From: a candidate division WOR-3 bacterium
GTDB taxonomy: Bacteria > Hydrothermota > UBA3072
Direction: 5' to 3'
DNA: 64,000 nucleotides
Assembly (NCBI GenBank): GCA_039804165.1
Contig: JBDRZZ010000003.1
Location: forward strand, 62,001 to 126,000
In this document: positions 4,477 through 14,522 of the stretch, piece by piece
How the letters are laid out: each line of letters starts with the position of its first letter
Numbering within the stretch: the first letter of the stretch is position 1
The notes under the pieces: generated by a model
Told to the model about the DNA's origin: nothing
Database searches by the model: none
What the model saw: the letters and a program-made list of their open reading frames with translations, nothing else
Made by a program: the position numbers and the translations under genes

Positions 4477-6690
4477 TTAATGCTTCTTATAATGGATTAG
4501 AGAAAGGATAAAAACAACGGTAGTAAAAATTAAAGAAAGAAAAGCAAGAGCAACTCCCAGATAGAAACTTCTCGGTTTGAAAAGAAAACTTACTCTATGT
4601 TTACCTTTAGGGACAGAAACTGCACGAAAGAGATAGTTGGCGCAAATTATATCGCTTCTTTCTTCATTAATGTAGGCTTCCCAACCAGGGTAATAGTGTT
4701 CTGAAAGTACAAGATAACCGTCCGAGACAAGTTCAACCTCCAGTTTTATCTTATCTGCTTCATACTCGATTATCTTGACGTTCTCTTTTTCTTTATCTTT
4801 CAACTCTTTATTAAAACCAACGATTTTTGTTTCTTCAGGAACTACCATCTCTTCTAATGGCTTAAAGGCATTGGATTTCATATAGGGAATGATTAAAGAG
4901 TCCGCCAGTTTCTTTACCTGGTGAACTATCCAAGCCCGGGGAAGATAAGAATCGCGTTTCGAGAGGGAAATTAACCTATTCCTGCCTATTGTGGTATCTC
5001 TTACTTCATATTTTACATTGTATAAGTCGAGATATTTTTCTTTTTGGTCTTTGAACGCCTGCTCAAATTTACTAAAACGGGCCAACTTATTTGGCACATG
5101 GCCATCAAGTGCTTCCAATTGAAACAATAAAGACCTTGAATTTGAATAGAAGTAACCAAATCTTGGAGAGTCTATTCTGAATTTTTCAAACTTACTTTCA
5201 TGTTGCAGAAACCGAATAAGGTGATTAGAAGAATAATAATCCTCAGGAGACATTTTCTGCCCAGCGAAGTAACTGCCCATGAGAAAAAGGTCAAAGAAGA
5301 GGATAATAGAAGCACAAATTTTAAACCATTGAGAAGATATTTTTTCTCTACTCCTTATATAAAGAAGAGAGAATGAAAAAAGCAAAAATACCCCGAAGAG
5401 AAGTAAACTTTGAAATATGACTTTGTGTTTGTAAAATCCTAAACCTGTTGACGGATAAATGCTGGTAGAATGCCATACCGCTACTCCAGCAATAATGACA
5501 GCAGTTCCTATTAATCCAAAAGTTCCGACTTTTTTAAAGTTCTTTTCTTTTAGATTATCTGCCAGAGAATCAAGAGAGAAAGATGTAATTATTGTAGACG
5601 CCAAAACAAAGAATGGCATAAATCTTATATGGAATCTCAAACCAGGTAAAAAGATAGCAATTAATTTCTGGAAAGGATTGTATTTTCCATACATAAATAT
5701 AAGAGCAAAACCCAATAAATAAAAGAAAAACCGTATATTTTTCTTATTGAAAATCCTGTACGAGAAAGCAAGTAAAAGCAAGCCAATAACACCAATATAA
5801 GAACTATATTCAACAAACATCCAGAATGACTCGTACCCACCCCAGTAATCGTAACCATCTGTTCCCTTCCCAAATATATGAGGGGTAAAAAGCGCTAGGA
5901 TCATTTTAAAGGGAGTATAACCCGCTACGAATTCCCGAGTTCTTGAACTCAACCTTACATACTCTAATTCAGGTATTATTCTTGGAGCAGCAAAAAATAA
6001 GCTCACTAGAATAAGAACTATAGCAAGAATTAATACTTTTTTTCTTTCTTTTGAGGTAATTGTGTTATATAAAAGGAAAGAACTAACCACTCCTAAGAGG
6101 TAAAAATATACTTGGATATGTGACCCCAAAATAGACATTCCTATAACTAAACCAGAAATCGAAGCCCAGAACAAATTTCTTTCTTTAGAAGTTTTTAATA
6201 GGGAATAAAAAATAATTGGGAGCCATATCAACCCTGTCAGTTCTCCTGTATGTTGTGTTCGAACAATTGTTGGCAGACTAAAAGAAAATAATACTACTCC
6301 GAATAACGAGGAAAGTTTAGAGATGCCTAATTCTTTCAATAAGAAATAGGTCGTAATACCACCAAACCATATCTGGAAAAGTAAAGATAATTCAACAATA
6401 TATGCGGAAATGTGGTTGTTTTTGAGAAACAATGACAAAAAAAGTAAAAAGGGACACAGGGAAAAAGTGGGCTGTGAACCAATAAAAGGATAACCCCCAT
6501 AGATATATGGTAGCCATAATGGGATCTTTCCCGAAAGAAGCATTTCAGCCATATAGGCTCTTCTGGGATATTCTACAAGGATAAAATCAAACCAGAAAAA
6601 TGATTCTTTTGTAATAATTTTCCAAAAAAATATGAAAAGCAACACAGTAAACGAAAAAATTATGAGAATATCATACCTTTTATTCTTCAA
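4477..6690 (-). CDS. YfhO-family polytopic membrane protein
   Basis: Large hydrophobic protein resembling YfhO (PF09586-type), which in Firmicutes is needed for glycosylating surface polymers. It has about a dozen membrane segments followed by a soluble C-terminal domain ending in YYPGWEAYINE, VPKGKHRVSF and a last membrane helix, the YfhO signature arrangement. The PYIYGGYPFIGSQPTFS segment in the first loop is also typical. The frame is open to a TTG at 6762, which would overlap the upstream glycosyltransferase by 20 bases. I prefer the TTG at 6690 because GAGGAGAG sits at proper spacing before it, giving 737 residues. It is the last gene of a GtrB-YfhO pair; the pair probably modifies a lipid-linked glycan. 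Confidence 0.8.
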   Translation of the reverse strand: MKNKRYDILIIFSFTVLLFIFFWKIITKESFFWFDFILVEYPRRAYMAEMLLSGKIPLWLPYIYGGYPFIGSQPTFSLCPFLLFLSLFLKNNHISAYIVELSLLFQIWFGGITTYFLLKELGISKLSSLFGVVLFSFSLPTIVRTQHTGELTGLIWLPIIFYSLLKTSKERNLFWASISGLVIGMSILGSHIQVYFYLLGVVSSFLLYNTITSKERKKVLILAIVLILVSLFFAAPRIIPELEYVRLSSRTREFVAGYTPFKMILALFTPHIFGKGTDGYDYWGGYESFWMFVEYSSYIGVIGLLLLAFSYRIFNKKNIRFFFYLLGFALIFMYGKYNPFQKLIAIFLPGLRFHIRFMPFFVLASTIITSFSLDSLADNLKEKNFKKVGTFGLIGTAVIIAGVAVWHSTSIYPSTGLGFYKHKVIFQSLLLFGVFLLFSFSLLYIRSREKISSQWFKICASIILFFDLFLMGSYFAGQKMSPEDYYSSNHLIRFLQHESKFEKFRIDSPRFGYFYSNSRSLLFQLEALDGHVPNKLARFSKFEQAFKDQKEKYLDLYNVKYEVRDTTIGRNRLISLSKRDSYLPRAWIVHQVKKLADSLIIPYMKSNAFKPLEEMVVPEETKIVGFNKELKDKEKENVKIIEYEADKIKLEVELVSDGYLVLSEHYYPGWEAYINEERSDIICANYLFRAVSVPKGKHRVSFLFKPRSFYLGVALAFLSLIFTTVVFILSLIHYKKH

Positions 6691-6742
6691 TACATTTCTC
6701 TCCTCTTTTTTCTGAATTATCTTCCATATCCAGATTGTAATT

Positions 6743-7675
6743 TTATTCGTATTTTTCTTCAATAATATACAGAGGTCTATCTTTTACCTCTCCATAAATT
6801 CTTCCGATATACTCGCCTATTATACCCAGAGTTATGAGTTGAATACCACCGAGAAATAGTATGATTGCTATTGCGGAAGCCCAACCTGGGACTATTTCCT
6901 TGAGGGCAAATCTATAAATAATTGCCCAAACCGCATATAAGAAAGAAAATATAGAGACTATAAATCCTACAAAACTGGCAACTTGAAGAGGTTTGATAGA
7001 AAATGAAATTATTCCATCTAATGCAAGCTTTATAAGTTTCCAGAATGAATATTTGACTTCTCCTTTATATCTTGGTTCTCTAATAAATTCTACACCTGTC
7101 TGTTTAAACCCCAACCAGCTGGTAAGCCCTCTGATAAAACGATATTGTTCTTTTAAATTCTTTAATCTTTCTGCTATGTTTTTATCCATAAGTCTATAAT
7201 CGCCAGCGTCCATTGGAATTTCTACCTCGGAAAGAAGTTTTAGAATACGATAGAAAAACCAGGCGACTCCTTTCTTAAAAAAACTTTCCCCTTTTCGTGC
7301 TTTTCTAACCGCATAAACTACCTGGTATCCCTCTTTCCATTTCTCTATCAAGCTGGGTATAAGTTCCGGAGGGTCCTGAAGGTCTCCATCCATTGTTATA
7401 ACAGCATCGCCGTGAGCAAAATCTATTCCTGCCGAGATTGCTGTTTGATGCCCAAAGTTCCGGGAGAATTTTAGAATTTTTACAGAGGAATTTTTTCTGT
7501 GCAACTCTTTTAACAGACTCCAGGAAGAATCAGAACTTCCATCGTCAACGAATACAATTTCATAATTTCCCTCTATTTTTTCAAAAACCTGAACCAATTT
7601 TTCATAGAGGATAGGAATATTATCCTCTTCATTATAAATTGGAATAACCACACTGTATAAAATTTCCTTATTCAT
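6743..7675 (-). CDS. GtrB/DPM1-like family 2 glycosyltransferase
   Basis: Membrane-anchored GT2 enzyme that should transfer a sugar from a nucleotide donor to undecaprenyl phosphate at the inner face of the membrane. The 310 residues comprise a GT-A domain (YSVVIPIYNEEDNI, FVDDGSSDSS, MDGDLQDPPE, AGDYRLMD) and two C-terminal membrane helices from about residue 230. This is the GtrB/ArnC layout. Its likely partner is the YfhO-like protein directly downstream, which could use the lipid-linked sugar. The sugar cannot be told from sequence. A TTGACA promoter lies just upstream, so the pair is probably transcribed independently of the decayed methyltransferase before it. Confidence 0.88.
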   Translation of the reverse strand: MNKEILYSVVIPIYNEEDNIPILYEKLVQVFEKIEGNYEIVFVDDGSSDSSWSLLKELHRKNSSVKILKFSRNFGHQTAISAGIDFAHGDAVITMDGDLQDPPELIPSLIEKWKEGYQVVYAVRKARKGESFFKKGVAWFFYRILKLLSEVEIPMDAGDYRLMDKNIAERLKNLKEQYRFIRGLTSWLGFKQTGVEFIREPRYKGEVKYSFWKLIKLALDGIISFSIKPLQVASFVGFIVSIFSFLYAVWAIIYRFALKEIVPGWASAIAIILFLGGIQLITLGIIGEYIGRIYGEVKDRPLYIIEEKYE

Positions 7676-7699
7676 TCTTATTATAAATTTTTATAATTA

Positions 7700-7727
7700 A
7701 TATTATAAAATAGCATTGGCTTGTCAA
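7700..7727 (-). promoter_or_regulatory. candidate promoter for gtrB-like/yfhO-like pair
   Basis: On the minus strand TTGACA (7727-7722), a 16-base spacer and TAATAT (7705-7700) precede the ATG at 7675. A stronger-looking TATAAT lies two bases earlier but at a 14-base spacing. Confidence 0.45.
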
Positions 7728-7734
7728 GTATGAG

Positions 7735-8494
7735 GGACATTGCTCGTGTCTAACTTTTTCCATAACTGCAAAAGCAATTAAACCGTAGGGATATATTAAT
7801 GCTTTCTCAAGCAATAAGTTTTCTAATTTTAGTGGATATTTTAAGGCTTTATTTATCTTAGGGGTAACTGAAACAATTGGTCGCCATTTACCTTTTGCAT
7901 TTTTTGGCATAAAATTTTATACGGTCCTGAAGAAACTTACAGAAATAAATAGACTGAAATTAGAATAAGAGGTTTTTTAAAAACTTTGAAATTATGTTCC
8001 TTCAATTCCTTTGCCAGTTTACTTCGTGAATATTTTCTATAATGATGATTGACTTCGTCGTGTTTTACTCCGTAAAAAATTGAAGGTAGGACCGAATACA
8101 ATAAAAATTCCATTCTATTTTAATATTATATTCCATTCCCCTAGTGACTTACTATCTTTTTCTACATGTTCCAATATCCTCGAAGTGATCAGAAAATCAA
8201 ATTTCTCGTCTTTAAAGTTAGTATTACCGCAATCTATTACAAAGGTATCTTTTATTCTATTTTTTCTGCACTTTACAATTCCTTCCTTGCTACTATCTAT
8301 AACCCACTATATTCTCAAAGTTTTTCTCTTAAAAAGCTATTAAATGTCCACCAGTACAACCAATATAAAGAACTTTAGACCCAGAACTAACCTTCAATTG
8401 TATTAGTAGTCTAAATATTATATCCCGTCGAGCTTCTACCCCACCGGTGATATTTTTCTGATTCGGAATGTTTCAATTCGTATTGTTTATCCAT
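7735..8494 (-). pseudogene. decayed SAM-dependent methyltransferase
   Basis: Class I methyltransferase broken into pieces. The start ATG at 8494 overlaps the stop of the NapH-like gene. Reading successive frames gives MDKQYELKHSESEKYH, then RARRDIIFRLLIQL, then GSKVLYIGCTGGHLIAF (motif I, normally hDIGCGTG), then FKDEKFDFLITSRILEHVEK (motif II/III), then GIFIVFGPTFNF. A final YPYGLIAFAVMEKV matches the usual tail of such glycan-locus enzymes. At least four frameshifts and several stops separate these blocks. Order and spacing match a roughly 240-residue enzyme, so this is one gene in decay. It fills the otherwise gene-free stretch 7676-8486. Confidence 0.75.
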
Positions 8495-9326
8495 TGTTAA
8501 CTCTTACTTCCTTTTCTTTAAAGGTAGTAAATCCATACGAAAATGATAACGCTCCTGTGGGACACTTTTTTATACACAAACCACATCTAATGCAATCTAT
8601 AGAATCCGGAACATTAAAGATTTCAATGTCCATAGGGCAGATATTATGACAGGCAAGGCATTCGGTACACCTTTTTTCATCAACCATAATCTTAAAAAAG
8701 GTAAATTTATTGAAGAGCCCGTAGATGGCTCCGAGAGGACAACAAAACCGGCAGAAGGGTCTTTTTATTAAAACCGAATAAGAGATAAAAACGAGAACAA
8801 TAGAAATCTTGACATAGAAAAACCAACCTACTCTGAGCCTTATAAAAGAATTTAACAAAACCAGAGGTATTCCAGCCTCAATTCCTCCTTGAGGGCATAA
8901 TTTACAGAACCAAGGTTGGAAGGTGAAAAGAGGCAATAAAATAACGAGAAAGAAAAGAACAAAAAACTTTGAATAATTATATTTTTCGGGTATTTGAATC
9001 TTAAAGGTTTTTATTTTATAAAGAAATTCTTGAAGAAAACCAAAGGGGCAGATCCATCCACAAGCAACTCTCCCTAAAGTTATTCCTAAAAATGCTAAAA
9101 ATCCTATTGCATAAAAAGGAAAGTTCCTTATAACAATAAAACTTTGAATTGTTCCAATAGGGCAGGAAAACCTCGCAAGAGGGCAGGAGTAACAATTAAG
9201 CCCAGGGAAAAGGAATCTTTTACCTACACCTTGATAAATATCAGTAGAAAAATGGTTATTAACTGTAAAAAAGGCACTTACCCCAACAGTTATCCGAATA
9301 TATTTATTGTACATCTTTTTTAACAT
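8487..9326 (-). CDS. NapH/NosR-like membrane 4Fe-4S ferredoxin
   Basis: Polytopic membrane protein with cytoplasmic iron-sulfur clusters that passes electrons between a quinone or ferredoxin pool and a partner. Several membrane helices carry Cys pairs (NCYSCPLARFSCP, GWICPFG, CKLCPQGG, CRFCCPLGA), followed by two ferredoxin motifs (CTECLACHNICP and CIRCGLCIKKCP). The frame is open to 9353, but the ATG at 9326 forms TAATG with the stop of the small gene upstream, so I take 9326 (279 residues). It ends the redox operon whose earlier genes encode TrxB-, glutaredoxin- and TlpA-like proteins, which suggests delivery of electrons to a disulfide relay. That role is inference. Confidence 0.85.
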   Translation of the reverse strand: MLKKMYNKYIRITVGVSAFFTVNNHFSTDIYQGVGKRFLFPGLNCYSCPLARFSCPIGTIQSFIVIRNFPFYAIGFLAFLGITLGRVACGWICPFGFLQEFLYKIKTFKIQIPEKYNYSKFFVLFFLVILLPLFTFQPWFCKLCPQGGIEAGIPLVLLNSFIRLRVGWFFYVKISIVLVFISYSVLIKRPFCRFCCPLGAIYGLFNKFTFFKIMVDEKRCTECLACHNICPMDIEIFNVPDSIDCIRCGLCIKKCPTGALSFSYGFTTFKEKEVRVNNG

Positions 9327-9469
9327 TAGTAAATTCCGATACAAGAAAGGCAAAGAACTGAACCAATAAATCCTGTTTCAAGAAATTGATTTATTAGGAC
9401 GCCATAAAATAACATTCCTATTCCTAAAATTAAACCAAGAAGTAAGGCAAATAAATGTTTATTTTTCAC
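9326..9469 (-). CDS. 47-residue membrane peptide with CLSC motif
   Basis: Small open frame with a GTG start overlapping the end of the TlpA-like gene and a stop overlapping the next ATG as TAATG. The peptide begins VKNKHLFALLLGLILG, has one hydrophobic helix and ends SVLCLSCIGIY. Both junctions overlap, the usual mark of a translated operon member, and two cysteines spaced CxxC suit a redox operon. I know no named family for it. It could be a small subunit or anchor of the NapH-like protein. Chance coding cannot be excluded at this length, but the double coupling argues against it. Confidence 0.65.
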   Translation of the reverse strand: MKNKHLFALLLGLILGIGMLFYGVLINQFLETGFIGSVLCLSCIGIY

Positions 9470-10019
9470 TTTCTTTTTCCTCCTCTTCTTTTAATAATTC
9501 CTTTACAATGATTTTTATTTTTTCTCCAAAACTTTCACTGAATCCCATTCTTGTATTTATTATTTCACCTTTTTTGTTTATTATAATAGTAACCGGAACT
9601 GCCTGAACCCTATATTTTCTTGCAGTTTCAATATCGCAGATTAAAATTGGATAGTTTATTTTAATAAAATCACTGAAAAATTTAAGGTTGCTCTTTTTCC
9701 CAATCCCAATCCCTAATATTACCAAATTTTCATTTTTTTCTTCTATATATTCTTTATACAAATTTTTAAGAAATAGAATTTCTTTTCTGCAGGCAGGGCA
9801 GTGAATTGCCCAAAAGTTTATAATGACTACCTTACCTTTGTATTTAGAAAGAGTGTGTTTATTCCCTTCTAAGTCTTCAAGCGTGAAGTCTGGAGCTAAA
9901 GTTTCTTTGCCTTTTTCTGGATTTGTTTTTATTTCTTTTTTTGTAGAAGAATTACTCGAGTTGCAAGAAACGGTAGGGAAAGAGCAAAGAATGATTATTA
10001 ATATTAAAAATTTATTCAA
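9459..10019 (-). CDS. TlpA/ResA-like thiol-disulfide lipoprotein
   Basis: Thioredoxin-fold protein exported across the inner membrane, where it would reduce or isomerise disulfides. The N terminus is a signal peptide ending TVSC with Cys19 as a probable lipid attachment site. A low-complexity linker follows, then an AhpC/TSA-Redoxin domain beginning LAPDFTLEDLEG. The active site is C74-P-A-C77 in NFWAIHCPAC, and the cis-Pro region is VQAVPVT. It is preceded by the glutaredoxin-like gene with an 8-base overlap. It could receive electrons through the membrane from the NapH-like protein, but no CcdA/DsbD-type gene is visible here. Confidence 0.88.
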   Translation of the reverse strand: MNKFLILIIILCSFPTVSCNSSNSSTKKEIKTNPEKGKETLAPDFTLEDLEGNKHTLSKYKGKVVIINFWAIHCPACRKEILFLKNLYKEYIEEKNENLVILGIGIGKKSNLKFFSDFIKINYPILICDIETARKYRVQAVPVTIIINKKGEIINTRMGFSESFGEKIKIIVKELLKEEEEKESEK

Positions 10020-10260
10020 ATTTCCTCCTTTTTATATTTAAAACTTTTCTAAGATGTTCTTCATTAAAACCCACAATCTTTTGATTCCCAAAAAGAAGAA
10101 CAGGAACTCCTACTTGCCCTGTTATATTTTTAAGTTCTTTTACAGCCTCAGGGTATATAGAGATATTTATCTCTTTAAATTTAATCCCATTTTCTTTTAA
10201 AAAATTCTTTAATTTAATACAATAAGGACAGTTAGAGGCAGTATAGACCTTAATATTCAT
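10012..10260 (-). CDS. glutaredoxin-like (thioredoxin-substitute) protein
   Basis: Short cytoplasmic thioredoxin-fold protein of 82 residues from the ATG at 10260. The frame extends to 10281, but the 10260 start gives the normal family N terminus (MNIKVYTASNCPYC). The CPYC active site, GVPVLLFGNQKIVGF cis-Pro/substrate region and the helix EEHLRKVL are all present. It starts inside the end of the thioredoxin reductase-like gene, an 11-base overlap, and so is probably its direct substrate, like the Grx-like/TrxR pairs of clostridia and other anaerobes. Confidence 0.88.
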   Translation of the reverse strand: MNIKVYTASNCPYCIKLKNFLKENGIKFKEINISIYPEAVKELKNITGQVGVPVLLFGNQKIVGFNEEHLRKVLNIKRRKFE

Positions 10261-11200
10261 TTTTTGCTTCGAGTGTTTCAAGAAATTTGTAAACTTCTTT
10301 AGCTCCTATAGCACCATCTCCTATAGCAGTTGCTATTTGTCGTAAGGGAGTAGTTCGGACATTTCCAATAGCAAAAACTCCAGGAAAGGATGTTCTCATA
10401 TATTGGTCTGTCAAAATAAAACCGTTCTCGTCTAATTCTAAGAGGCCTTTTACAAGTTCGCTGTTGGGGACTTCTCCTACATAAATGAAAGCACCCTTTG
10501 CTTCAAGGAATTTTATCTTTCCTTTCTTTAAATCTTTGACTTCAACGCCGCTTAACATTTCATCTCCTATAAATCTAATAACTGAATGCGATAATAGTAA
10601 TTCTATTTTTTTATTATATTTAACCCGATCTATAAGGATTTTTTCGCCAGTTGGATATTCAAGTTTTTCAATTATTGTGATATGTTTTGCAAATCTTGAG
10701 ATGTATAAAGATTCTTGAAGACCAGAGTTTCCCGCACCTATTACAACAACATTTTCCCCTTCAAAAAGAGGAGCATCACAAGTAGCACAAAAAGAGATTC
10801 CTTTATGGATAAACTCTTCTTCTCCGGGGACACCTAATTTTTTAAAAGAAGTTCCCATCGATAATATCAAAGTTAGAGAGGTGTAAGAGGAAATGGAAGT
10901 TTCTATTATAAAGGGTTTTTCTTCCAAAATTATTTTCTTAACTTCCTCATTTTTAATTATAGCTCCAAATTTTTGCGCGTGTTGATGATATAATTTCCCC
11001 AAATCTATTCCGGAGATTCCTTCTGGAAAACCCGGATAATTTTCTATATTATGAATATTAACTACATAACCTCCTGGCAGGAATTTTTCAAATACTATTG
11101 TGTCTACTTTGGATCTACCAAGATAAATTGCTGCAGTAAGTCCTGCTGGACCACTACCTATAATTGCCGTAGAGAAATGATTTTTCTTGTTAAAACTCAT
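10250..11200 (-). CDS. thioredoxin reductase-like flavoprotein with altered nucleotide site
   Basis: FAD-dependent disulfide reductase of TrxB architecture, 316 residues. The FAD motif is GSGPAGLTAAIYLGR (residues 15-29), the redox pair is C138-A-T-C141, and a second Rossmann motif GAGNSG lies near 155-160. Where classical TrxB has HRRDGFRA for the NADPH 2'-phosphate, this protein has EKLEYPTG (residues 178-185). The C-terminal FAD motif reads FAIGNVRTTPLRQ instead of the usual GDV. The fold and disulfide function are well supported, but NADPH use is doubtful. Ferredoxin-, F420- or NADH-linked variants are known in this family. Confidence 0.88.
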   Translation of the reverse strand: MSFNKKNHFSTAIIGSGPAGLTAAIYLGRSKVDTIVFEKFLPGGYVVNIHNIENYPGFPEGISGIDLGKLYHQHAQKFGAIIKNEEVKKIILEEKPFIIETSISSYTSLTLILSMGTSFKKLGVPGEEEFIHKGISFCATCDAPLFEGENVVVIGAGNSGLQESLYISRFAKHITIIEKLEYPTGEKILIDRVKYNKKIELLLSHSVIRFIGDEMLSGVEVKDLKKGKIKFLEAKGAFIYVGEVPNSELVKGLLELDENGFILTDQYMRTSFPGVFAIGNVRTTPLRQIATAIGDGAIGAKEVYKFLETLEAKNEY

Positions 11201-11205
11201 TTATT

Positions 11206-11394
11206 TCAAAAGTTTCTTTTATCTTCTCTAAGAAAAGTTCCATACATTACTCTTTCACTTACAAAAGAAAACTTATAGGAATTTCTGACATCTTCTTTTA
11301 AATCCTCGTAGGATTTTGAGATTAGAGATAAATTATCATTTAAAGAGACAACTTCTTTTAAATATTCTTTATCGCCTCTGCTTATTATACCCAA
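11206..11394 (-). CDS. hypothetical small protein before the redox operon
   Basis: A 62-residue frame from a TTG at 11394 (preceded by GAGGG) ending six bases before the TrxB-like ATG. The charged peptide contains KEYLKEVVSLNDNLSLI, SYEDLKEDVRNSYKF and FVSERVMYGTFLRE and looks mostly helical. I do not recognise it. It might be a genuine first gene of the redox operon or the tail of a larger degraded frame. A TTGACA element upstream (11441-11436) supports a transcription start here. Confidence 0.4.
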   Translation of the reverse strand: MGIISRGDKEYLKEVVSLNDNLSLISKSYEDLKEDVRNSYKFSFVSERVMYGTFLREDKRNF

Positions 11395-11413
11395 ACTACC
11401 CTCTTTTTCCTAT

Positions 11414-11441
11414 AAGGTATGAATCTTTTAAAGAATGTCAA
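11414..11441 (-). promoter_or_regulatory. candidate promoter of the redox operon
   Basis: Minus-strand TTGACA (11441-11436), 16-base spacer, TACCTT (11419-11414). It matches the spacing of other promoters in this window, although the -10 box is poor. It overlaps the stop of the decayed polymerase's last fragment. Confidence 0.35.
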
Positions 11442-12974
11442 GAGTTTATTTTAAAGATCCTTTGTATAAAATTTTCAATTTCTTTAGCTTTTTCTTCCAT
11501 CCCTCTATTTTTGTATTCTTTTATAAGAATTTCATATAATTTTTTACTCTTCGGATTAAGTTCTATCGCTTTAATAAGAATTTTTTCAGGATTTTTGAAG
11601 AAAATGACCTTTTCGTGTCTTTTTAAAAATTCATAAATTTTGAAAGGTGTTTCCCAATCAATGGGATCGCTTCTCATTGCTTTTAAGTATGAGTTATAAG
11701 CAAAGAAAAGAAAACTAACCAAATTTGTTTTATAGTATAATTGTTCGCTTACTAAACCAAGAGGTATTGAATTTTGTGGTAAGCCTCAAAGGGATTCTGC
11801 CCAAGAAAAACATTTATAAGACTTCTCATAATTTTTGTTTTTAAAATAGGCTCTTCCTTTTTCTCCAAGAAAGTGAGAAGATAAAGGTAAAAGATAAATA
11901 AGGCTTAGAAAAGATATGCTTGATTTAACCAAATTGGATAGATTAAGAGGATATTCTTTTTCTTCTTCTATTGTAAAAAGAATTGCTATAAAAATAAGAA
12001 AAATTACAGGAAGATATAGAATATTATCGAATAAAGAGTGAATGAGGATGGCAACTATGGGAATGCGTTCTGTATTTTTAAGTTTTTTATAATTAAAGAA
12101 GAAAGTTATAAATAGAAAAACATAACAGAAGAAAAAGAAATCCTCCTTCCGCAAAATAATTGAGAAATTCATTATGGGCCATTTCTGGTATTTTTTATAT
12201 TCTCCATTAACAGGAAAGTTGTATTTAAAAAGAAATTTTTTTTTTATAGTTTCTTAGTTCCCAGCCTGTGATAGGTCTATCCAAGCCAATTTTAATTGCT
12301 TATTTCCAAATGTTTGGATGTTGAAGAGAATCTGAATGAACTTTTTAATTACTCTTTTACTTACTGGGTTAGGTAGAATGAGAATTGTTCCAATCAAAAT
12401 AGGGCTAATCAAAGCGAAAATTTTTCTTTTAAAGATTAAGAAGGGGAAAACGAGAATAAAAATGAGCACAATTCTTGACCCGGTAAGGATAGAGAAGAAA
12501 AAAAGAGAAAGAAGAGGGGATATTTAATCAATTTGTTTTTTATATGGAGGCTATATAGAAATCCTAAGGTAAGTGGGAAGACAAAGAAGTTGGCATATCT
12601 ATAAGTTCCACTTACTCAATTTGGGGGAAACATAAGAGAAGAAAAATATGCTTAAAAGTAATAAATTTTTATCTGGTTTTATTAAAAGGAGTGAAATAAA
12701 AAATAGGCCAAGTATTCTAAGAAAGCTTCCATTAAATAGAGAAGTGAGGGAGAAAAATAAACTTGCAAGAAAAGAAGCGATTATAAATAAATTAAGGGGT
12801 AAAAGAAAAGAACTTTTTGGCTGTTTTTTCTTATATAAGTAGATAAGACTAAAGTCCCAAAAGATAAATAGCCCATGGGCTCTCTTCTCCCTTATAAAAA
12901 CCTGTGGCAAATATTGGTAAAGAACAGATAAAAATTTTACTAATTTCTTTAGATTTGTTCGATTCTTTCTTCAT
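11438..12974 (-). pseudogene. decayed O-antigen ligase/polymerase (Wzy_C type) with TPR tail
   Basis: Ruined polytopic membrane protein. Its ATG at 12974 overlaps the end of the wbpD-like gene. Fragments in changing frames read ICSLPIFATGFYKGEESPWA, a long membrane stretch at 12850-12600, LTGSRIVLIFILVFPF near 12490, and the diagnostic AHNEFLNYFAEGGFL just upstream of 12130. Next comes IPIVAILIHSLFDN, and last a helical repeat segment at 11722-11438 (NPEKILIKAIELNPKSKKLYE). Order, topology and the HNE loop match Wzy/WaaL-type proteins with C-terminal TPRs. At least five frame changes or stops interrupt it, so no functional product is expected. It accounts for the gene-poor stretch 11400-12950. 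Confidence 0.78.
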
Positions 12975-13521
12975 TAATTTTTCTGTATTTTTTTTTGCAT
13001 TTAGAACAAGAGGTTTCTTTTTGGTTGAAAATGATTTTGTTGCCACACTCGCAAATCCAGCCTTTTAATTTTGCCGGATTTCCATAAACTATAGCATAAT
13101 CTGGAACATCTTTTGTAACCACAGAACCTGCTCCAACAAAAGAGTATTCCCCTAAAGTGATACCACAGATTATGGTGGCATTAGCTCCTATAGTAGCTCC
13201 CCTTTTTACTATGGTTTTTAGATATTCTTTTCTTTCTTTTGGATAAGCTGCTCTTGGGTTTTTAACATTGGTAAAAACCATTGAAGGGCCGCAGAACACA
13301 TCGTCTTCTAAAGTTACTCCTTCATACACAGAAACATTATTTTGAATCTTCACATTATTCCCAATTTTAACATTTGGTCCAATACAAACATTCTGCCCGA
13401 TTGTACAATTTTCACCAATAGTGACATTAGAAAGAATATGAGAAAAATGCCAGATCTTTGTCCCATTCCCAATTTTAACATTATCGTCTATATAAGATGA
13501 TTGATGGACAAAATACCCCAT
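12949..13521 (-). CDS. WbpD/WlbB-like UDP-amino-sugar N-acetyltransferase
   Basis: Left-handed beta-helix acetyltransferase that should acetylate the 3-amino group of UDP-2-acetamido-3-amino-2,3-dideoxy-glucuronate. Hexapeptide repeats fill most of the 190 residues ([32 protein letters not shown]), with [12 protein letters not shown] and the AcCoA-site turns [10 protein letters not shown] and [12 protein letters not shown] typical of WbpD. The C-terminal CECG and CSKC pairs form a small zinc-ribbon-like tail. It sits directly downstream of a WbpB-like dehydrogenase, and a WbpE-like aminotransferase lies in the same locus, so the three-step set is complete. WbpA is not in the window. Confidence 0.88.
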
Positions 13522-14499
13522 TTATCTTTTTTCCTCCAAAGATTTTTGAGCTTCTTTTAGGATTTTTAAAACCCGTAGGCCACTCTCCCCATCGCTTTTT
13601 GGTTTCTTTTTATTTTTTATACAATCAATAAAATCTTCGCAAACTGCGTTAAGAGGCTCATATAAAGGAATACTGGGTATATAAATATCTCCATACCTAA
13701 CACCCACGCCCCCTTTTTCTGTCCATTCAATACCTTTATCAAAAATTGTCAATTTATTCCTTAGTTCCATGTCGTCAAAGACAACCATTTTTTTACTACC
13801 CACAATTGTTAGCTTTCTTGTTTTGTTGGGATTAAGCCAGCTGAGATGAGAATGGGCATTAGCTCCAGAAGGAAATTTTAAATGAAGAAAAACAGTATCT
13901 TCAATTTTTTGTTTTTCTTGAAGATATATGCTTCCAAAGGCCTCTATTTTAGATGGAAAATCTTCTAAGAGATATAGGAAGATAGAAATATCATGGGGGC
14001 CAAGGCTCCAGAGAACATTTTCTTTAGACCGAATTACTCCTAAATTGAGGCGCTCACTATATAAATAGTAAATTTTCCCAAGCTCTCCATTTTTTATTAT
14101 TTCTTTTATTCTTGAAATGGCAGGATGATAAATAAGGAGGTGATCAACCATTAAAATTAAACCTTTTTTCTTTGCAATCTCTATTAGTTCCTCGGCTTCT
14201 TCTAGCTGAAGGGCTATTGGTTTTTCTACCAAGACATTTTTACCTTTAAGAAGAGCTTCTTTTGCAATTTTGTAGTGGGTTTCAGTAGGAGTTGCTATTG
14301 CTATTGAGTCAATTTCTTCTTTAGAAATGATTTCTTTGGCAAGCAAAAAGCTTTTAATTCCTATAAATTCTGATGTTATTTTTGAGAGTTTGTTTCTATC
14401 TGAATCACAGATTGCCACATTTTCTATTCCCAAGATCCTGACAAAGTTTCTAACTAAATTACTACCCCAATTTCCCACTCCAATTATTCCGATTTTCAT
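13522..14499 (-). CDS. Gfo/Idh/MocA oxidoreductase (WbpB-like)
   Basis: NAD(P)-dependent sugar dehydrogenase of 325 residues, probably oxidising C3 of UDP-N-acetylglucosaminuronate before transamination. The Rossmann motif GIIGVGNWGSN is at the N terminus. EKPIALQLEEAEELI is the conserved block with the active-site Lys, and GPHDISIFLYLL marks the C-terminal substrate domain. It abuts the wbpD-like gene without a gap. The start ATG follows GGAGG. Assignment to the WbpB branch depends on the neighbouring WbpD- and WbpE-like genes; the fold alone fits many substrates. Confidence 0.85.
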   Translation of the reverse strand: MKIGIIGVGNWGSNLVRNFVRILGIENVAICDSDRNKLSKITSEFIGIKSFLLAKEIISKEEIDSIAIATPTETHYKIAKEALLKGKNVLVEKPIALQLEEAEELIEIAKKKGLILMVDHLLIYHPAISRIKEIIKNGELGKIYYLYSERLNLGVIRSKENVLWSLGPHDISIFLYLLEDFPSKIEAFGSIYLQEKQKIEDTVFLHLKFPSGANAHSHLSWLNPNKTRKLTIVGSKKMVVFDDMELRNKLTIFDKGIEWTEKGGVGVRYGDIYIPSIPLYEPLNAVCEDFIDCIKNKKKPKSDGESGLRVLKILKEAQKSLEEKR

Positions 14500-14522
14500 T
14501 AAACCTCCAAAAAGTATTATAA

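Follow-up and report, generated by a model that had tools for sequence, protein, structure and literature searches.

A TlpA-like protein, a 47-residue membrane peptide and a NapH-like ferredoxin form a conserved gene set that may reduce exported thiols

Genes for a TlpA-like thioredoxin-fold protein, a 47-residue membrane peptide (p47) and a NapH-like ferredoxin form a conserved core that is smaller than the operon described here but widespread across several phyla, and we lean towards reading this triad as a transmembrane thiol-reducing system in place of DsbD/CcdA. The operon lies in a 64,000-nucleotide stretch (the window) of a candidate division WOR-3 genome, a 1.96 Mb MAG (G000), which was compared with five other genomes of its family (G001–G005), with further members of its phylum and with loci from other phyla.

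The operon and its genes

All genes named in a preliminary description of this locus were found where it had placed them, on the minus strand, and inspection of the ORFs gave the transcription order p62, TrxB, glutaredoxin (Grx), TlpA-like, p47 and NapH-like (Table 1). The overlapping series that it reported holds for the five genes from TrxB to NapH-like, with 32 nt shared by TrxB and Grx, 8 nt by Grx and TlpA-like, 11 nt by TlpA-like and p47, and a single base common to the p47 stop and the NapH-like ATG (TAATG, 9328–9324); p62, a decayed gene, falls outside it. The NapH-like ORF is open as far as a TTG at 9353 (i.e. 8487–9353), its start probably being the ATG at 9326, while the p47 gene starts with GTG and its peptide ends in CLSCIGIY. 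Named families were backed by Pfam/NCBIfam for every gene of the operon except p47 and p62, neither of which gave a Pfam or NCBIfam match at E 0.01. The TlpA-like protein has an AhpC-TSA/redoxin fold (PF00578) in which WxxxCxxC is present as WAIHCPAC and, judged by eye, an N-terminal export signal with a possible lipobox; its scores lay below the equivalog cut-offs of both the ResA model (90.2 vs. 170 bits) and the TlpA model (45.3 vs. 230 bits).

Table 1. Genes of the operon, with coordinates in the window.
Feature	Position	Strand	Evidence
NapH-like polyferredoxin membrane protein	8487..9326	-	PF12801 and Fer4 over cut-off; invariant cysteines in alignments
p47, bitopic membrane peptide	9326..9469	-	Homologues beside NapH-like gene; charge bias predicting N-in/C-out
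TlpA/ResA-like thioredoxin-fold protein, CPAC	9459..10019	-	PF00578, 76.7 bits, over cut-off
YruB/NrdH-type glutaredoxin, CPYC, cytoplasmic	10012..10281	-	PF00462, 62.8 bits; TIGR02196, 71.4 bits (below cut-off of 88.55)
TrxB, thioredoxin reductase-like flavoprotein, CATC	10250..11200	-	PF07992, 151 bits; TIGR01292, 324.3 bits (slightly below cut-off of 343.45)
p62, PDO gene relic, 62 aa	11206..11394	-	Collinear pieces of relatives' 214-aa PDO

The five relatives (loci L033–L037 of G001–G005) carry an intact gene for a 214-aa protein 1–3 nt before TrxB, and the L033 copy scores 206.8 bits against TIGR02187 (cut-off 185). Short pieces of p62 match residues 1–14, 43–68 and about 149–163 of this protein in collinear order (best E 1.5e-5). 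Because both the order of the matches and the genomic position agree with the relatives' gene, p62 is, judged from these alignments, the relic of a two-domain glutaredoxin-like protein disulfide oxidoreductase (PDO). A genome search found no other PDO match in G000, although TrxB is kept. A functional role for p62 as a small-protein component of the relay, as proposed in the preliminary description, is ruled out by this decay, and the ancestral set was probably PDO-TrxB-Grx-TlpA-p47-NapH.

Alignments of the NapH-like protein revealed CX3CP membrane motifs, extra conserved cysteines and two C-terminal 4Fe-4S motifs. The CX3CP membrane module is common to NapH, NosR and RdhC (PceC), and the C-terminal 2x4Fe-4S motifs are likewise found in NapH and NosR; the NapH-like protein differs from these in its extra conserved cysteines, its thioredoxin-fold partners and a locus without nap genes. 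Neither napA nor napG was found by a Pfam scan of the ORFs around 6000–14500, where the NapH-like gene lies among thiol-redox genes and others that are unrelated, and the protein's scores against the curated NapH models lay below their cut-offs (TIGR02163, 70.7 vs. 213.05 bits; NF007013, 64.4 vs. 234). Disulfide formation by the CX3CP pairs of NapH-type proteins has been considered possible (PMC5928378). No viral relatives of the NapH-like protein were confirmed. In one family (f15; L071 and L202–L204), the NapH-like proteins encoded beside a Sec-type p47 are ~430–460 aa long, and their membrane domain carries a large insertion.

Conservation of the gene set

A NapH-like homologue was present in 48 of 60 relatives. 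The order TrxB-Grx-TlpA-p47-NapH is kept in all five other family genomes, with NapH-like proteins 55–61% identical. Other families of the same phylum keep p47-NapH without TrxB or Grx, several of their loci having a TlpA-like gene ~2.1 kb upstream (at L061 with the gene of a DUF6029 protein in between). Across 120 loci, comprising 40 from the window's own phylum and 80 named ones (Clostridia, Spirochaetes, Actinobacteria, Desulfobacterota, Poribacteria and others), a p47-like ORF was found near the NapH-like gene in 112, an automatic count that is approximate because some of the ORFs counted are cut at UGA. The two genes are distant from each other in L041 (7 kb) and L138 (1.5 kb), and in L102 their order is reversed (NapH-p47). 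A TlpA-like gene on the same strand within 1.6 kb accompanied 57 of the 80 named loci vs. 5 of the 40 own-phylum loci, and the neighbour count showed no other gene recurring as strongly around p47-NapH. The order kept within the family, together with p47 homologues beside NapH-like genes across phyla, indicates that the gene set is more than chance. Rather than being scattered in all relatives, which was the outcome named beforehand as speaking against the operon, TlpA-p47-NapH is conserved far beyond the lineage; linkage of TrxB and Grx to this core was seen only in the window's family, and a place for these two genes in a general system is therefore not supported.

These loci were collected via NapH, and the converse, that p47 always occurs with NapH, does not follow. 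Copies of p47 (with Sec or Cys) without NapH were encountered in one family (L187, L189, L193, L199, L200, L201 and L205), in clusters with varying combinations of a methyltransferase, BcrAD, HGD-D, an Omp28-domain WCxxC protein and an AIR-synthase-type protein, the last of which looks like SelD. In such clusters the link with exported thiol proteins is kept, yet NapH is not an invariable partner of p47.

The p47 peptide

The peptide has the form of the CD1871A family (NF040920), i.e. a short peptide with a single TM segment that ends in CxxC-[IVLM]-G, and shares with it size, the single TM segment and the C-terminal CxxCIG motif. The NF040920 model was matched by 13 of 20 own-phylum p47 homologues (best 1e-10); the p47 of the window scored 7.6 bits, under the cut-off of 32, with L079 (Cys replacing Sec) at 32.8 bits and the clostridial triad member L095 at 63.6 bits. 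On these scores the window's p47 is a distant relative of CD1871A, linked via intermediate homologues. Literature searches found no published function for CD1871A (NF040920).

A survey of 110 peptides gave net charges of +3.2 on the N-terminal side of the TM segment and –1.2 on the C-terminal side, the former being the more positive in 99%; the CxxC should therefore face outwards, according to this predicted N-in/C-out topology. A single MAG (L149) encodes the NapH-like protein with p47 joined to its C-terminus, the TlpA gene lying directly upstream, and no further fusion of this kind was seen among 53 matching genomes. An AlphaFold model of the fusion (mean pLDDT 85.7, about 58–75 in the fused p47 part) renders the fused part as a TM helix followed by a second helix with the CxxC. 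Compared with PDB folds, this model gave no match at E <= 0.001, the weak ones being mostly ferredoxin domains, and a PDB sequence search covered the ferredoxin domain only.

Selenocysteine in p47 and TlpA-like proteins

Some p47 ORFs terminate precisely at the motif, where a UGA read as Sec yields UxxC (L041, L071, L079, L088 and L138) or CxxU (L073). Of 120 genomes of the phylum that were scanned, 93 had p47, in several cases with one TGA, and we collected 21 UGA-type genes with the UGA exactly at a motif Cys. These were searched for a hairpin that fits the bSECIS geometry in the literature, with 113 Cys-type genes at the same position and shuffled sequences as controls. At –5 kcal/mol or lower the hairpin was present in 21 of 21 UGA genes vs. 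4% of Cys-type genes and 15% of shuffles, and at –7.5 kcal/mol in 18 of 21 vs. 2% and 5%, respectively; shuffle z-scores of the 55-nt windows were weak, and the comparison with Cys-type genes was used instead. One family contributed 15 distinct sequences; in these, 99% of the stem cells pair, and one pair varies in step between G-C, C-G and U-A. SelB was over cut-off in all six UGA-type genomes tested; in G000, whose p47 has two Cys, it was not. With a UGA at a conserved Cys, a bSECIS hairpin and SelB, the UGA-type homologues (as distinct from the window gene) have the attributes of bacterial selenoproteins and are predicted to be such. Two clostridial MAGs also encode a TlpA-like partner with UxxC (in-frame UGA; L084:1650-2700 and L095:5100-6100), beside a Cys-type p47 and a NapH-like gene.

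NF040920/CD1871A is not among the 119 selenoprotein families of a 2026 inventory (PMC13188914), and p47 may be a selenoprotein family not yet in inventories, a priority that, judged from this inventory alone, is not certain. In a membrane selenoprotein as small as this the UGA resembles a stop, and the peptide would be shortened or missed in annotation.

Replacement of Cys by Sec is usual for redox-active thiols, and in p47 it affects either Cys in several lineages. This argues against the view that p47, rather than acting as a thiol relay, is a small subunit that stabilises the NapH-like protein or provides its CxxC as ligand to a cluster of that protein, as does the occurrence of p47 beside exported thiol proteins without NapH. 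Such a role, with which the tight p47-NapH linkage, the one fusion and the extra conserved cysteines of the NapH-like protein agree, is in our judgement decidedly unlikely.

Other redox systems in the same genomes

The DsbD_TM domain (PF02683) had no match in the whole genome of G000, nor in G001, G002 and G005, and exceeded its cut-off in only one of the six family genomes (G003). It was absent from six of eight triad genomes tested outside the phylum. Within the phylum it was over cut-off in 21 of 27 p47-negative vs. 40 of 93 p47-positive genomes (Fisher p 0.002, phylogeny ignored; counts tallied from tables, with a few p47-negative genomes deduced from unlisted rows), and at the level of families the anticorrelation gave p 0.04. 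Cytochrom_C_asm was present in G000 and G001, with no match in G002–G005. In G000 the frame around the match to this family (L209; G000:C8:60701-61303) is open for 807 aa and may encode a fused cytochrome c assembly protein of system II. No VKOR was found in the six family genomes.

Studied members of the TlpA/ResA family act reductively, and the occurrence of p47 is negatively correlated with that of DsbD/CcdA, which are reductive too. Both observations weigh against a flow of electrons in the reverse direction, in which p47 would oxidise TlpA or other exported thiols and the NapH-like protein would pass the electrons inwards to ferredoxin or quinone, a role like that of DsbB/VKOR. We regard this as unlikely, even though VKOR is lacking from the family genomes and electron exchange with quinones is known for relatives of NapH (PMC5928378). 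Cytochrome c maturation, with apocytochromes reduced via a ResA-like TlpA and CcdA replaced, would be a special case of the TlpA-p47-NapH relay and one that we hold very improbable; it fits the resemblance of TlpA to ResA and the coexistence in G000 and G001 of a Cytochrom_C_asm protein with no DsbD/CcdA match, but the operon is kept in G002–G005, where Cytochrom_C_asm had no match. Taken together, the DsbD_TM pattern, the restriction of Cytochrom_C_asm to G000 and G001 and the lack of VKOR favour a reductive relay with TlpA as the receiver.

A proposed reductive relay

In the reductive TlpA-p47-NapH relay, a cytoplasmic donor (ferredoxin-like or, in the window's family, perhaps TrxB/Grx) would reduce the NapH-like protein at its C-terminal 4Fe-4S clusters, and the Cys-rich core of this protein would carry electrons across the membrane. 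They would then reduce the outward CxxC or UxxC of the bitopic peptide, which, as a dithiol or selenol-thiol, would hand them on to the exported TlpA-like protein for the reduction of substrates outside. We infer the physical contacts (in the window's organism), the direction of the electrons, the donor and the substrates. The relay is suggested by the gene set, SECIS/Sec at p47 and TlpA, the fusion, the charge bias and the scarcity of DsbD. Counting against it are the confinement of the fusion to one MAG, the lack of an adjacent TlpA in most own-phylum loci outside the window's family, and the p47 copies with no NapH neighbour. The preliminary description had proposed an undescribed route of electrons to periplasmic thiols, and this proposal gains from the core triad, Sec at the CxxC, the predicted outward topology and the fusion, shorn of p62 and of TrxB/Grx as general parts. 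Literature searches found no earlier account of a NapH/TlpA/CD1871A electron route, the peptide family itself being already named (CD1871A, NF040920).

The proposed task is that of DsbD/CcdA/ScsB with TlpA/ResA/CcmG, namely the transfer of cytoplasmic electrons to exported thioredoxin-fold proteins, but the DsbD_TM domain is replaced by an Fe-S membrane protein and a separate 45-residue Cys/Sec peptide. The proposed chemistry, from an Fe-S cluster to a redox-active disulfide, is like that of ferredoxin:thioredoxin reductase, an enzyme that is soluble and cytoplasmic, unlike the proposed membrane relay.

We see an about even chance for the proposal in its full extent, i.e. a thiol reduction unrelated to DsbD/CcdA, spread over several phyla, in which an Fe-S protein charges a 45-residue peptide, of a selenoprotein family new to inventories, that serves exported thioredoxins. 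In many of the anaerobes examined, exported TlpA-like proteins occur with no detectable DsbD/CcdA, and the triad is a widespread candidate for their reductant; if this is true, unrelated parts take the place of DsbD/CcdA in this task.
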